Shown here one piece after another: positions 43,852 through 49,856 of a DNA stretch of 64,000 nt. Location: positions 1-64,000 of the forward strand of contig NZ_FXTH01000013.1 in assembly GCF_900182555.1 (NCBI RefSeq). Direction: 5' to 3'. Under the pieces are notes generated by a model. That model ran no database searches. It was not told where the DNA came from and saw only the letters and a program-made list of their open reading frames with translations. The stretch comes from Fodinibius sediminis (lineage in GTDB: Bacteria; Bacteroidota; Rhodothermia; Balneolales; Balneolaceae). The translations under genes and the position numbers were made by a program. The number at the start of each line of letters is the position of its first letter. The stretch's first letter is position 1.

Positions 43852-44618
43852 TGGACAGGAACGCGGCATCGGCACCCGACGGCATTATAAAAAAATACCC
43901 TTCCCGGAACAACGGCAGGCTGCCATTGGTATCTTTTTCCGGTATAACAAAAATCTACGGGGAGGGCCCCGCCCGGGTGTGGGCCCTGCGTGAAGTAAGC
44001 CTGCGGATCTACCAGGGGGAGTTTGTGGCCATCATGGGTCCCAGCGGGTCGGGTAAATCAACCTGTCTGAATATGATCGGCTGCCTGGATACTCCCACTG
44101 CTGGATCCTACCGGTTCCGGGAGGTAGAGGTAGGTCATCTAGACCGTAACCAGCGGGCCCTGCTGAGGCGTCACTACTTCGGTTTTGTCTTCCAGGGGTA
44201 CAACCTGCTAAAACGGACCACCGCCCTGGAAAATGTGGAGATGCCGTTGATCTACCGCGGCTTCAGTAAGTCCTCCAGGATGGACCGCGCCATGCAGGCG
44301 CTGGCAGCAGTTAGCCTGAAAGGGCGTGAGCATCACACACCTGCCGAGCTTTCCGGGGGCGAGCAGCAACGGGTGGCTATTGCACGGGCCCTCGTTACCG
44401 ACCCGGAGCTGCTGCTTGCCGACGAACCGACCGGCAACCTGGACTCACGGTCAGCAGTGGAAATCATGGAACTTCTGCTGCAGCTGAATCGCGATGAGGG
44501 GCTGACGATTGCGATGGTTACCCATGAACCGGATATGGCCGCCTATGCTGATCGCACTATTCACTTCCTGGATGGACAAATCCTGAATGACCAGCAAAGG
44601 GAGGGGGCAAAGCGATGA
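43851..44618 (+). CDS. MacB/LolD-type ABC ATPase
   Basis: The ATP-binding subunit of a mechanotransmission ABC system, 255 residues. Walker A is GPSGSGKST, the Q-loop FVFQGYNLL, the signature ELSGGEQQR, Walker [13 protein letters not shown], and the H-loop His is in AMVTHEPD. About 25 extra residues precede the core. In canonical MacB this ATPase is fused to its permease; here it is a separate polypeptide, as in LolD or BceA-like systems. It overlaps the permease start by four bases (ATGA). Confidence 0.92.
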
Positions 44619-45822
44619 TTTGGAATACCATAAAGCTCGCCATCACTGCCATCGGGCGGAATCTTCTGCGGTCGACTCTGACCATCCTGGGTATCGTGAT
44701 AGGGGTAACAGCGGTTATCAGCATGGTGACCCTCGGCGGGGGTGCAACATCGCAGATTACGCGTGAAATTACCAGTTTGGGCAGCGACCTGCTTATTTTA
44801 CGTCCCGGAATCCGGGGCAGGCACGGGGGGATCCCGAGGGATGCCGAACCTTTTAAACGTGCGGATGCAAAGGCTATCAACGAGGAGGTTGGCGGCATTG
44901 CGGGTGCCACACCGGTATCGTCCAGTGCAACTACAGCAGTATATGGCAATGAAAACTGGTCAACGAGCATCATGGGTTCCGACAATAGCTACCTGTCTGC
45001 ACGATCGTGGGAGCTTGAATCGGGACGGGAATTTACGGAAGCCGAACTGGTGGGGGGACGGCTTTCCTGCATACTGGGAGCCACTGTCAAGGAGAAGCTG
45101 TTCGGCTACCAGGATCCGCTCGATGCCAGGATCAGGGTGGGAACCGCAAGCTGTACCGTCATCGGGGTACTGAAAAGCAAAGGGGGTCAACATTCGGAAT
45201 GGACCAGGATGATTTTATCCTGATGCCCATCAAGGCGCTTCAGCGGCGGATACTGGGCAATACAGATGTGGGTACCATCTATATATCCCTGCAGAGCGGG
45301 GCGAACTCACAGCAGATACAGACGGAAGTTACAGAACTTATGCGTCAGCGCAGGCGTATCAGGGCAGGGGAGGAAGATGACTTTGAGTTGGATGACATGG
45401 CCCAGATAGCCAGCACGGTGGCCAGTACCACCGGTACATTGACGGCCTTCCTGGGGGCTATTGCGGCCATCAGCCTGCTGGTGGGCGGCATAGGGATCAT
45501 GAATATCATGCTGGTATCGGTTACCGAGCGAACCCGTGAAATCGGTATCCGCCTGGCCATTGGGGCCCTCGGGCGCGAGGTCCTGCTCCAGTTTTTGATT
45601 GAGGCGATCATACTGTCGCTGTTCGGGGGAATTATCGGCATCGTGCTGGGTCTGGGCCTGGCGGCTTTCGTAGCACCTGTGCTGGGCGTACCTTTTGTCT
45701 TTAATCTGAATATTGTTGTTATCGCCTTTCTTTTTTCCGGCATTGTCGGGGTGGTCTTCGGTTTTTTTCCGGCACGGCGGGCCGCTCTCATGGATCCAAT
45801 TGATGCCCTGCGCTACGAATAG
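44615..45822 (+). pseudogene. MacB-type permease split by a one-base frameshift
   Basis: The permease half of the efflux system is broken. The first frame (44615-45223) covers the first membrane helix and the periplasmic MacB_PCD domain up to VIGVLKSKGGQHS. The second frame (45199-45822) restarts at DQDDFILMPIKALQRRILG and carries the last three helices (FtsX domain) through DPIDALRYE. In intact relatives the two segments are contiguous around residue 195. Adding one G near 45190-45197 would rejoin the frames. It could be a true mutation, a programmed shift or a sequencing error. The adaptor and ATPase genes upstream are intact. Confidence 0.85.
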
Positions 45823-45888
45823 CCTGCCCCCTTTGCCTGATGGAAATACCGCTTTCATAAATTTGACTTGAATTTAATATTGACGGAT

Positions 45889-45904
45889 AGTATCATTTTA
45901 TATA
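45889..45904 (+). promoter_or_regulatory. candidate LexA-like operator, box 1 (AGTATCATTTTATATA)
   Basis: Lies 20 bases before the start codon of the LexA-like gene and matches 15 of 16 bases of the element before the Y-family polymerase gene (46941-46956). Autoregulation of a LexA-type repressor would be expected. The region is AT-rich, so chance similarity is possible. Confidence 0.5.
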
Positions 45905-45924
45905 ATTAGTAATAAATATTATAT

Positions 45925-46572
45925 ATGGAATATCCATCACTGACGACGAAGCAACAGGATTTTTTTAATTTTCTGGTTGAGTATGCCCGGGAGTATGACC
46001 AGTGGCCTTCGCATCAGGAGCTGATGGATGCGTTTGGGTTTAAGTCGCCCCGGAGTGTGACCCAGCTGTATGAAGCGCTGATAAAAAAACACTACCTGGT
46101 CAAGGCAGAATGGGGGGAGTACGATTTTCATCCGGTCCAGAAGTTTAACCTGCTGGAAGATGAGGATAGCGAGGAATACGGGATTCCCATCGTTGGGCTG
46201 ATTACGGCCGGCGGGATGCAGGAAGCCGTTGAAGAGGACCTGGGGCGGGTTACGCTTAAATCAATCCTTCCGAATTACAGGAAGATGAAAGCTGTGGTTG
46301 TTTCGGGACAGAGCATGAAGGAGGCGGGTATCAACAACGGGGACATTGTATTGCTTGCCCAGACGGATATTTTTGACGGAGACATTGGCGCCGTCCGCTA
46401 CCGCGGGGAAACCAGCCTGAAACGTATTTACAGTACCCCCACCGGGATGAAACTAAAACCCGCCAATGAGGATTTTGAGCCCATCATGATTGAGCCCGGT
46501 GAATTTGAAGAGGTCAATATTATCGGAAAGTATGTGGGACACATCAATGAAAAGGGATTGCACAAAGTATAG
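45925..46572 (+). CDS. LexA-like SOS repressor (winged helix plus S24 peptidase)
   Basis: A 215-residue self-cleaving repressor. The N-terminus (about 5-65) fits the LexA winged helix: TTKQQDFFNFLVEY, WPSHQELMDAFGFKSPRSV, then LIKKHYLV. The C-terminus is an S24 peptidase with a cleavage site A95-G96 (LITAGGM), nucleophile S130 (SGQSMKEAG) and K166 (ETSLKRI). The spacing matches LexA (Ser119, Lys156 in E. coli). It starts a cluster with an unknown 113-residue gene, a Y-family polymerase and a Cho-like nuclease. It could be the main LexA or a local paralogue. Confidence 0.88.
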   Translation: MEYPSLTTKQQDFFNFLVEYAREYDQWPSHQELMDAFGFKSPRSVTQLYEALIKKHYLVKAEWGEYDFHPVQKFNLLEDEDSEEYGIPIVGLITAGGMQEAVEEDLGRVTLKSILPNYRKMKAVVVSGQSMKEAGINNGDIVLLAQTDIFDGDIGAVRYRGETSLKRIYSTPTGMKLKPANEDFEPIMIEPGEFEEVNIIGKYVGHINEKGLHKV

Positions 46573-46914
46573 CTATCCCGGTTTTTCAATCATCATCTGA
46601 TCATCCAGCTCATACAGGACCCGCCATTCCACCGACCTTACATCGTACATGAGGTCAAAGTACCGGTCTTCGGTCGTCCGAACGACATAGTGGATCTGGG
46701 TGGTACCCTCGGGGCCTGTTCCTTTCCGGTGGGGACGGGTGGCCCGCAACTCCGCAATTTGGTGTTCCCTGCCTTTTTTGCGCCAGAAACGAAGAGGCAT
46801 CATTTTGCGCTGCCCGACCAGTGAACGGATCCCGAATGTTCGTTCGTCCGCAAAGCTTTTGTAGGCCACCTGCACGTTAATACGTTCATTGATAGGGGTT
46901 TTGTTGTCACTCAT
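46573..46914 (-). CDS. 113-residue protein of unknown function in the DNA-damage cluster
   Basis: I recognise no family. The protein is soluble and basic in the middle (RFWRKKGREHQ and RPHRKGTG), with strands at the end (HYVVRTTEDRYFDLMYD, VEWRVLYELDDQM). Its start is 70 bases from that of the Y-family polymerase gene, so both diverge from one short promoter holding the candidate operator. Its stop abuts the stop of the LexA-like gene (adjacent coordinates 46572/46573). A role as an accessory of the polymerase or of the repressor is plausible by position only. Confidence 0.7.
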   Translation of the reverse strand: MSDNKTPINERINVQVAYKSFADERTFGIRSLVGQRKMMPLRFWRKKGREHQIAELRATRPHRKGTGPEGTTQIHYVVRTTEDRYFDLMYDVRSVEWRVLYELDDQMMIEKPG

Positions 46915-46940
46915 AACACTCCTGTAAATTATATATTTTT

Positions 46941-46956
46941 AGTATTATTTTATATA
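46941..46956 (+). promoter_or_regulatory. candidate LexA-like operator, box 2 (AGTATTATTTTATATA)
   Basis: In the 70-base divergent promoter between the unknown 113-residue gene and the polymerase gene. It is the best copy of the element also found before the LexA-like gene, and is followed by TAGTGGTATA, an echo of the TAGTAATA that follows box 1. Confidence 0.5.
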
Positions 46957-46984
46957 TAAATAGTGGTATAAGTCAAGCCCTAAT

Positions 46985-48316
46985 ATGATGATTGGAATTG
47001 AGCCCGGCACCTATGATGTTCACGAAGATGTTCACAAGATTACGGATTACCGGTGTGTCAGCCGTGACATGCAGCACACCTCCATGGAGCCGAGATTATA
47101 CCTTCATGTGGACATGAATTGTTTCTATGCCCAGGTTGAACAGCTGTGCTATAACCTGTACGGGATGCCGCTGTATGTGGGAGGATGGTACAAACCGGAC
47201 GGAACGCCCCGGGGCATCGTCGCCACTTCCAGCTACGAGGCCCGGGCTTTTGGGGTGAAGACCGGCATGAGTGCCTATGAGGCCGAAAAGATATGTCCTT
47301 ACCTGGTAGGGGTGCAGGCCGACTACAAGAAATACGAGGGGATGAGCCGCCTGGTCCGGGAGGTACTCCAGGGGTTTGCCATGGATGTTGAAAAATACAG
47401 CATGGATGAATATTTCATTGACATCAACTTTCTGAAGGATGCATCGCGGGCAGTGCTGGAAGATTATGCCCATCGGCTTAAGCATAAGCTCTATGATGAG
47501 CTGCACCTGGTTTGTTCCATAGGCATTGCCCGCTCCAAGACGTATGCCAAACTGGCCAGTGATCTCCGAAAGCCCAGGGGAATTACCATTGTGTATGATG
47601 AAGAAGATGCAGCAGAGCTGATTTACCCGCTGCCGCTGGATGAGGTCTGGGGGATCGGGAACAGGCGGTATGCGAAGCTCAGGAAGGAGGGGCTCATTAC
47701 CATCGCCGACGGGCTGGAGCGCGGCTATCCCCTGTTCCAGAAACAGTTCGGGGAATATTTTGGAAAAATCGTCTATGAGATGATTGCCGGCAAAGATCGG
47801 GCAAGAGTGCTTACCGAGGAATCGCCGCCTCCTGAACTGCTGAATTACATGCACACCTTCAGCGACTGGACGAAGAATCCGGACAAGGTGGAGGGAGAGA
47901 TTATGAAGGGCATACAGCAGCTGTGCTACCGCATGCGGGGATACGGGGTGAAAGCGGACAAGTATTTTTGTTATCTGCGGGTGCAGGATCAAAAATGGTC
48001 AGGCGATAAATTTCGGTTTAATACCGCCGGCAGGACCAACTTGGATGATTATATCTACCGGGCGTGCATGAAGCAGGCCCGCCCGAGGATGGCCCGTCTG
48101 CTGGCCAATGGGTTTGCCCTGCGGGGGGTCGGACTCGGGACGCTGGAGCTGGACCGCTCCCATCAGCAGGAACTGTTTTTCAGCGAGAATAAGAAGATGC
48201 GGCAGTTCTACCTGGCTCAAGATGCAATCAATAATGAATACGGCAAGGGAACCATCCAGAAAGCCAGCATGAAGTATGGGGTGGAAGGGAAGACCCACTT
48301 TTTAGAAAGGAGCTGA
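46985..48316 (+). CDS. Y-family DNA polymerase (DinB/UmuC type)
   Basis: A lesion-bypass polymerase of 443 residues. Active-site acids are D43 (HVDMNCFYAQVE) and D141/E142 (YSMDEYFIDI); Y48 is the likely steric gate against ribonucleotides. Finger and thumb parts are seen in TSSYEARAFGVKTGM, GIARSKTYAKLASD and VWGIGNRRYAKL. Toward the C-terminus HQQELFF could bind the sliding clamp. The N-terminal 33 residues are unlike the family, and M34 (ATG at 47084) is an alternative start. The neighbouring LexA-like and Cho-like genes suggest induction on DNA damage. DinB versus UmuC subtype is not settled. Confidence 0.9.
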   Translation: MMIGIEPGTYDVHEDVHKITDYRCVSRDMQHTSMEPRLYLHVDMNCFYAQVEQLCYNLYGMPLYVGGWYKPDGTPRGIVATSSYEARAFGVKTGMSAYEAEKICPYLVGVQADYKKYEGMSRLVREVLQGFAMDVEKYSMDEYFIDINFLKDASRAVLEDYAHRLKHKLYDELHLVCSIGIARSKTYAKLASDLRKPRGITIVYDEEDAAELIYPLPLDEVWGIGNRRYAKLRKEGLITIADGLERGYPLFQKQFGEYFGKIVYEMIAGKDRARVLTEESPPPELLNYMHTFSDWTKNPDKVEGEIMKGIQQLCYRMRGYGVKADKYFCYLRVQDQKWSGDKFRFNTAGRTNLDDYIYRACMKQARPRMARLLANGFALRGVGLGTLELDRSHQQELFFSENKKMRQFYLAQDAINNEYGKGTIQKASMKYGVEGKTHFLERS

Positions 48317-48388
48317 TTCGAAACCGGGCGGAAATCGATCGGCTGTGGAGTGGATGGGATAAAGAAGGTGCAGAGAGATCCTTGTTGC

Positions 48389-48407
48389 TATTTATAAATA
48401 ATAACCG
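48389..48407 (-). promoter_or_regulatory. AT-rich element related to the candidate operator
   Basis: On the minus strand it reads CGGTTATTATTTATAAATA, sharing TATTATTT with the other boxes and CGG plus ATTATTTATA with the copy at 48478-48494. A weak member of the set. Confidence 0.3.
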
Positions 48408-48477
48408 AAATAGTTAGCTTCAGCTGATAATGGTGGGTGCTGTTCGCATGCCCCCCCCGGTTGCGGGAAGAGATCAT

Positions 48478-48494
48478 TACTATAAATAATACCG
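48478..48494 (-). promoter_or_regulatory. candidate LexA-like operator, box 3 (CGGTATTATTTATAGTA)
   Basis: Immediately before the ATG of the GIY-YIG nuclease gene, in reverse orientation. It shares the nine bases GTATTATTT with box 2. Position fits repression of that gene. Confidence 0.4.
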
Positions 48495-48498
48495 TCCT

Positions 48499-49344
48499 AT
48501 GACATCCTTTTTTGAGGCAGAAAATCCACTGGAGGAACGGCTGGGCAAAGCCTTTTTTGAAAAGCTTCCGACCGCGCCGGGGATCTACAAGATGTTTGGG
48601 CGGGGAGACCATCTCCTGTACATAGGCAAGGCTAAAAACCTGCGCAGCCGCCTGTTCACCTATCGGCGGGCCAGCGGTGCCAACTGCAGCCGAAAGGTCT
48701 GGAAACTTGTACGCATGGTGCAGCATATCACCCTCGAGCAACTCTCCTCGGAAGAGGAGGCCCTGCTGAGGGAGAATGAACTGATTCGCAGGCACCGGCC
48801 GCCTTTCAACCATGCAAAGAAGGCCCCGGAAACCTATTACTATATATCGGCGGTGCCGGAGCGGGAGGAAATCGTTTTTGACCTGAACATGGATCTACGC
48901 GAGAAAGCGCGCGGGCATACCTACGGGGCCTTCAAGGGGCACCGTCGGGTTCGTCGTGCGCTGGGTGCACTGCTGAGGCAGCTGTATATCATGGAACGGC
49001 TTGTTGGTACTCCTTTTGACCTTCCGGTGCAGCTGACCCGCAGCCTCACGCCCGTCCACTACCGCCTGGAGGTGGCACGGCCCCGGCACCCCCTGCTTCA
49101 TGATTATTTTTACGGGAGCTCTGATCGGCTTTTATACCGGATCATTGAGGATCACCTGGATAACAGCCGGCTGGAAAAATTTATTGGTAAACTTATTTTA
49201 AAGGATATGGAAGCCCTGCGGTGGTTTTATGACCGAGCCGCCCGGCGAAATTTTAAAATAAGGGAGATGCTGGGACTGGGCAATAGCCTGATTCCACAGG
49301 AGAAACTTGATGATTACCTGGTGATGCTGGCCTTTGAAGACTAA
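48499..49344 (+). CDS. Cho/UvrC-like GIY-YIG endonuclease
   Basis: A 281-residue single-chain nuclease resembling the N-terminal half of UvrC and E. coli Cho. Motifs: GIY at 28-30 (APGIYKMF), YIG at 41-43 (LLYIGKAKNLRSRL), the catalytic Glu in LLRENELIRRHRPPFN (92 or 94), and N104. The C-terminal RNase H-like and HhH domains of full UvrC are absent. Cho makes the 3' cut in nucleotide excision repair and is SOS-regulated in E. coli. Here it is the last gene of the cluster and ends before a hairpin. Confidence 0.88.
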   Translation: MTSFFEAENPLEERLGKAFFEKLPTAPGIYKMFGRGDHLLYIGKAKNLRSRLFTYRRASGANCSRKVWKLVRMVQHITLEQLSSEEEALLRENELIRRHRPPFNHAKKAPETYYYISAVPEREEIVFDLNMDLREKARGHTYGAFKGHRRVRRALGALLRQLYIMERLVGTPFDLPVQLTRSLTPVHYRLEVARPRHPLLHDYFYGSSDRLLYRIIEDHLDNSRLEKFIGKLILKDMEALRWFYDRAARRNFKIREMLGLGNSLIPQEKLDDYLVMLAFED

Positions 49345-49856
49345 GTGGTACAGGGGCTTTCGAAATATAATAGCTGTTGCCCCCGGGCAACAGAATAATT
49401 TATATATCGATTCTGCATTCCGGTGGCAAAGGGCTGGATCCGGCGTTTTCTGGGAATAGATCTGGTTTTGGAATTGGAAAGAAACAACTGATTGTTATAT
49501 ATAAGGTATCCTCCGCATGTTATGATGAACTTGGGAACCTGCCATAGGATTCATGACAGGTTTGTGTGGTGGTACCACCGGTCTCAGACGTTAGTAGGGG
49601 TCCGAAGATGGATGAAAAGAAGGGGACGAATATCCTGGGGACAAGGTTTCAATGTCAGGGCCAAGTGAATCCCCTGCTGGCCGGATAGCGGGCCAGCGGT
49701 GTTGCGATATCCCGGCAATTACTTATTTGGAACCCGGGACAGGCGCCTGGTCAGAGAAACCGGGGATGTTCTTCGGCAAATGGGATTCACCGGAGACGAT
49801 GATCTGTATTGATTATTTTGATTTATATGAGAAAGATATTTTTAATGTGGGATATT
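49345..49856. other. intergenic region before the glycan-use locus
   Basis: About 510 bases. A stem-loop opens it (see next entry). A short open frame at 49652 shows no family or clear start signal and was not accepted. The element TTATATATAAGGTATCC near 49496 slightly recalls the AT-rich boxes of the DNA-damage cluster. Nothing else recognised. Confidence 0.45.
49374..49393. terminator. stem-loop after the GIY-YIG nuclease gene
   Basis: CTGTTGCCC pairs with GGGCAACAG in a 20-base hairpin, followed by an AT-rich stretch (AATAATTTAT). Likely end of the DNA-damage cluster. Confidence 0.6.

Follow-up and report, generated by a model that had tools for sequence, protein, structure and literature searches.

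The closest described system to the locus reported here is the lexA-imuB-C-polY operon of Geobacter sulfurreducens, which is damage-induced and expressed as one transcript (GeoPolY-like group; PMC6511836). Neighbourhoods that combine a solo ImuB-C with DinB, LexA and SRAP have also been published (PMC3765255). In Balneolaeota, the LexA regulon includes recA, translesion polymerases and SRAP, and LexA recognizes the direct-repeat target TTACACATATTTTWTACATA (PMC7739468). LexA duplication with a change of the DNA target is an established model (PMC8565304). The intermediate stages of such a target change are rarely seen.

We analysed a 64-kb stretch of DNA (hereafter, the window) from a 4.43-Mb draft genome of Fodinibius, a salt-loving bacterium whose genus also includes F. 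roseus and F. halophilus. A sequence-only reading of the window had described a LexA-like repressor, a 113-aa gene, a Y-family polymerase and a GIY-YIG nuclease lying together. The ORF list and the profile matches confirm all four genes at approximately that place. The same reading had called the combination a nonstandard set, which is contradicted by the damage-induced Geobacter operon (PMC6511836) and the ImuB-C/DinB/LexA/SRAP neighbourhoods (PMC3765255).

The window locus nevertheless differs from each precedent. Unlike the single Geobacter transcript, the small gene here diverges from the polymerase and converges on lexA. The polymerase belongs to a separate Balneolota subfamily, and the likeness of the small protein to ImuB-C is an analogy. 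The solo ImuB-C neighbourhoods share their partner set, including SRAP, with the sister cassettes of our locus, and solo ImuB-C resembles the 113-aa protein in its similar size, a conserved tryptophan near the C-terminus and a mostly beta character. However, the window copy has no SRAP, and the sequence match to DUF6504, which we take as solo ImuB-C-like, is marginal. The Bacillus YolD/YqjX proteins with YqjW/UvrX, and UmuD' with UmuC, likewise pair a small beta partner with a polymerase that has a clamp motif, a RecA-NT-like stretch and a conserved tail, but no relationship of the 113-aa family to YolD or UmuD is detectable by sequence. The Balneolaeota regulon comes from the same phylum, with a canonical LexA and with translesion polymerases and SRAP as targets, yet its TTACACATATTTTWTACATA element differs from the motif common to the two promoters here. 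New relative to these precedents are the divergent arrangement of the genes, the small family that has no classification and the presence, side by side, of cassettes whose promoter elements differ. We consider it likely that the locus is a self-contained, LexA-autoregulated translesion/SOS mutagenesis cassette, with the 113-aa protein as a predicted small beta subunit.

A canonical LexA and a Y-family polymerase are encoded with a small protein

The lexA gene (45925..46572, + strand) encodes a canonical LexA composed of a winged-helix DNA-binding domain (Pfam LexA_DNA_bind, 1.3e-8) and an S24 autopeptidase (Peptidase_S24, 5e-19). It also matches TIGR00498 with a score of 102.9 bits, just below the 110.95 cut-off. 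The Ala95-Gly96 cleavage site, Ser130 and Lys166 are kept and were invariant in a 16-sequence alignment.

The Y-family DNA polymerase gene (46985..48316, + strand) specifies an IMS fold (Pfam IMS, 2e-40) with intact catalytic carboxylates, Asp43, Asp141 and Glu142, and the enzyme looks active by itself from its residues. It carries a QQELFF clamp-type motif, a RecA-NT-like stretch and a conserved C-tail, GKTHFLER. Comparing 12 diverse members of the subfamily, we find that the carboxylates, the clamp-type motif (QxELFF), the RecA-NT-like stretch and the GKTHFLER tail are all kept, the tail being strongly conserved. The same motif layout is described for UmuC and YqjW/UvrX, whose tails bind the small beta partner or are expected to do so (PMC6511836).

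The 113-aa gene (46573..46914, - strand) encodes a small, predicted all-beta protein. It lies tail-to-tail with lexA, the two stop codons abutting, and 70 bp separate it from the divergent polymerase gene. A LexA, an active-type PolY with a RecA-NT-like motif and a small partner are encoded together, as in the lexA-imuB-C-polY type. The locus is not of the ImuA-ImuB-DnaE2 type: the polymerase is active-type, and no ImuA or DnaE2 neighbours were found in the window or in the examined ORFs of the sister cassette.

LexA, the 113-aa gene and the polymerase form a conserved unit

We checked co-occurrence in 59 genomes of the order, 49 of which are at least 90% complete. Of the 59 genomes, 41 have the polymerase subfamily and 42 have the 113-aa family, and the two are concordant in 56. 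Among the 41 genomes with the polymerase, 40 have the 113-aa family (Fisher p 2e-11 for the 59 genomes and 1e-9 for the subset of 49). We also inspected 56 named polymerase loci, each flanked by at least 1.5 kb (up to 6 kb) of sequence on either side. The 113-aa gene was close to the polymerase in 45 of these and divergent from it in 41; SRAP was near the polymerase in 21 and lexA in 6. Most Fodinibius cassettes include a linked lexA, and so do cassettes of two near genera (G021 and G024), often together with SRAP; elsewhere in the order, lexA is a single gene without this linkage. In summary, lexA, the 113-aa gene and the polymerase are a conserved unit, and their co-occurrence is well beyond chance. 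The dedicated LexA and Y-polymerase cassette that the sequence-only reading had proposed is thus conserved beyond this strain and probably self-regulated. That reading had suggested a search for conserved co-occurrence of all four genes; three of them do co-occur, while the nuclease gene is distributed independently, as described below.

The same genome contains a second cassette (C11:6999-9398), in which the polymerase is 66%, the 113-aa relative 38% and the LexA 40% identical to those of the window, followed by SRAP. In a LexA tree, cassette-linked LexAs are distributed over several lineages; some sit on long branches, the position of which is uncertain. A few Opitutales/Verrucomicrobia records (L183, L206, L208 and L214) also contain the polymerase/113-aa pair, which suggests horizontal transfer. 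In G005, an orphan lexA with 89% identity to the window LexA adjoins a remnant (22 codons) of the 113-aa gene (C3:378022-378739; L132 8023-8740), so cassettes also decay.

The 113-aa protein is a candidate polymerase subunit

The 113-aa protein has no significant match to any Pfam, NCBIfam, PHROGs or PADLOC family, and its match to DUF6504 is faint (E = 0.12). Neither a profile search of PDB sequences nor a peptide-pattern search of genome contigs turned up relatives of the 113-aa family. Using hhalign and an HMM cross-search, we obtained a colinear alignment of the 113-aa family with DUF6504 that stayed below significance. The AF2 model of the 113-aa protein (pLDDT 82.7) has six strands and no long helix, and the model of a DUF6504 protein (pLDDT 90.7) has six strands in the same order. 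The two models share 13 of their 50 best PDB neighbours. Foldseek gave no significant PDB fold for either model, and the best VIA Z of about 6 for both, against cystatin/monellin-like sheets, is within the usual noise. Homology to DUF6504 by sequence is suggestive only. We use "ImuB-C-like" as a working analogy and not as membership, because the sequence comparison with DUF6504 is not significant.

The best reading by analogy is that the 113-aa protein serves as a small beta subunit in an ImuB-C/UmuD'/YolD-like role. Alternatively, it could be an independent regulator or another kind of DNA-damage sensor. This would suit a protein that matches no known family and whose gene, in a few genomes, lies away from or without the polymerase (G022, G029 and G055; away from it in G022 and G029). 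However, the family accompanies the polymerase also where lexA lies elsewhere, and its strands are predicted in the order of those of DUF6504, which is encoded beside a Y-polymerase relative; we therefore regard a non-subunit role as unlikely. As a putative subunit, the family, which has no significant curated match, is a concrete candidate for the missing accessory subunit of a polymerase widespread in Balneolota.

We also noticed some variant arrangements. A double-length form of about 200 aa, in which each gene gives two or three profile matches, adjoins the polymerase in Balneola/Gracilimonas relatives (L143-L147 and L218-L243). In another family of the phylum, DUF6504 genes lie in operons composed of S24, Y-polymerase relative and DUF6504 genes (loci L276-L282). 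By eye, the polymerase relative in these operons is without catalytic motifs and is dead-looking.

The lexA and polymerase promoters share a motif found nowhere else in the genome

Inspecting the AT-rich promoters of the cassette, we found a 17-mer, TAGTATYATTTTATATA, that occurs exactly twice in the 4.43-Mb genome. One copy is a candidate private operator at lexA (TAGTATCATTTTATATA, 45888..45904, + strand), and the other (TAGTATTATTTTATATA, 46940..46956, + strand) is a second such candidate within the 70-bp bidirectional promoter between the 113-aa and polymerase genes. The genome contains no further copy with one mismatch. Since the motif was found post hoc by looking at these very promoters, the shuffle figures carry the weight: the 15/16 match between the lexA and polymerase promoters was equalled by none of 300 dinucleotide shuffles. 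By eye, no clear dyad or fixed-spacing direct repeat was apparent for the operator of the window LexA.

In the same shuffle test on 14 cassettes, 9 have a motif common to the lexA and polymerase promoters (p of about 0.05 or less), and the other 5 have no significant common motif. The common motif varies with the LexA lineage: CATAAATCGTTCAT is found in G005, TATGTACAAACGTACA-type elements in G003, G010 and G021, and TATGTGTgAAaCACACA-type elements in G001 and G010. TTTCATRT repeats are common to both promoters in the C11 cassette and in F. roseus. Allowing up to one mismatch, the C11-type box occurs in this genome only at the two promoters of the C11 cassette itself.

Another word, TATAAWTARTR, was considered as an operator. 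All four of its matches in the window fall within this cassette. We dropped it, because it shows no genome-wide excess (39 matches against 44 for the reversed control) and resembles a -10 promoter word found before many lexA genes.

The above observations bear on whether this lexA encodes no more than the genome's general SOS repressor, located by chance beside a polymerase and running no private circuit. The Balneolaeota LexA does control recA, polymerases and SRAP together (PMC7739468), and the window LexA shares 50-55% identity with the family's unlinked core LexA. On the other hand, the candidate operator is present only at this cassette, the genome has a second lexA with another box, linked lexA genes are spread over several lineages, and we found no candidate LexA boxes upstream of recA (own genome, L249). 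A general-repressor role is thus distinctly unlikely. The sequence-only reading had named another lexA controlling SOS as an argument against its proposal. That argument holds in part: a second lexA does exist, but it sits in its own sister cassette, and none of the candidate boxes was seen upstream of recA.

A model for an autoregulated cassette

In the self-contained cassette that we favour, LexA would repress its own gene, and a single short bidirectional promoter would place both the 113-aa gene and the polymerase under the same repression. On DNA damage, RecA filaments would trigger self-cleavage of LexA at Ala95-Gly96, and both promoters would be released. The polymerase would then be tethered to the sliding clamp through QQELFF and to RecA through the RecA-NT-like motif. 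The 113-aa beta protein would take the part played elsewhere by UmuD', YolD or ImuB-C, as a small accessory subunit that presumably docks on the conserved C-tail. The Cho-like nuclease would be an adjoining gene that may or may not be drawn into the circuit. LexA binding, damage induction and the subunit contacts are inferred parts of this model.

Because the candidate operator appears to be confined to this cassette, we expect the sister cassette in the same cell to be switched independently. Sister cassettes within the genus seem to use different LexA switches. Going further, Fodinibius may run several insulated SOS circuits at once, each cassette having its own LexA-operator pair without cross-talk and spreading or decaying as a unit, with the 113-aa family as a new class of translesion-polymerase partner; we offer this broader picture tentatively and rate it as somewhat doubtful. 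A single genus with several coexisting, promoter-matched LexA/operator candidates on the same polymerase module provides natural test cases for the splitting of regulatory specificity.

The Cho-like nuclease is probably a local addition

The fourth gene (48499..49344, + strand) encodes a GIY-YIG nuclease (9e-10) that corresponds to the UvrC N-terminal half only and keeps the GIY-YIG motifs intact. Like E. coli Cho, it is a stand-alone nuclease related to that half of UvrC. However, the protein scores 51 bits against the 367-bit cut-off of the Cho model and is below cut-off in all the UvrC, Cho and DEDD-exonuclease models, and unlike a cassette gene it is not conserved with the others; we call it "Cho-like" only.

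The Cho-like gene is present in 30 of the 59 genomes, 21 of the 41 with the polymerase and 9 of the 18 without it (p = 1), and at none of the 56 named polymerase loci. Direct adjacency of the two genes was seen only in this genome, and a loose proximity (about 7 kb) only in F. roseus. The best relatives of the gene lie at other genomic sites, and the slot behind the polymerase is often taken by SRAP in relatives. The gene is therefore out as a conserved cassette member, and the sequence-only view of it as a regular part of the module is not supported; it is probably a local addition only.

A weak operator-like sequence (48385..48402, - strand) lies upstream of the Cho-like gene. It matches the lexA site at 14 of 18 positions, which is suggestive only; among the non-self matches in the window, it ties for best. 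A three-promoter shuffle including the Cho-like gene gave p of about 0.005-0.04 at most widths and 0.17-0.22 at two, and is weaker than the two-promoter form. The polymerase and Cho promoters are similar at p of about 0.01 for widths 14-16. The operator-like sequence makes co-regulation possible, though unproven. These similarities, the position of the gene 182 bp behind the polymerase on the same strand and the LexA control of cho in E. coli would fit a single inducible module in which Cho-type incision is coupled to translesion synthesis and this LexA governs all four genes, but the independent distribution, the absence of adjacency at the named loci and the lack of the specific 17-mer, TAGTATYATTTTATATA, in the Cho promoter make such a module very improbable.

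An anti-phage defence role is out, as the PADLOC models gave no match for the cassette, and so is plasmid carriage of the polymerase, with no match at 1e-60. In G008, the Cho-like gene is broken into two frames (L170 4975-5849; C3:255992-256833). Upstream of the window lexA, a MacB-type permease gene (44615-45822) is split into two frames that overlap (44615-45223 and 45199-45822), apparently through a frameshift or a sequencing error.
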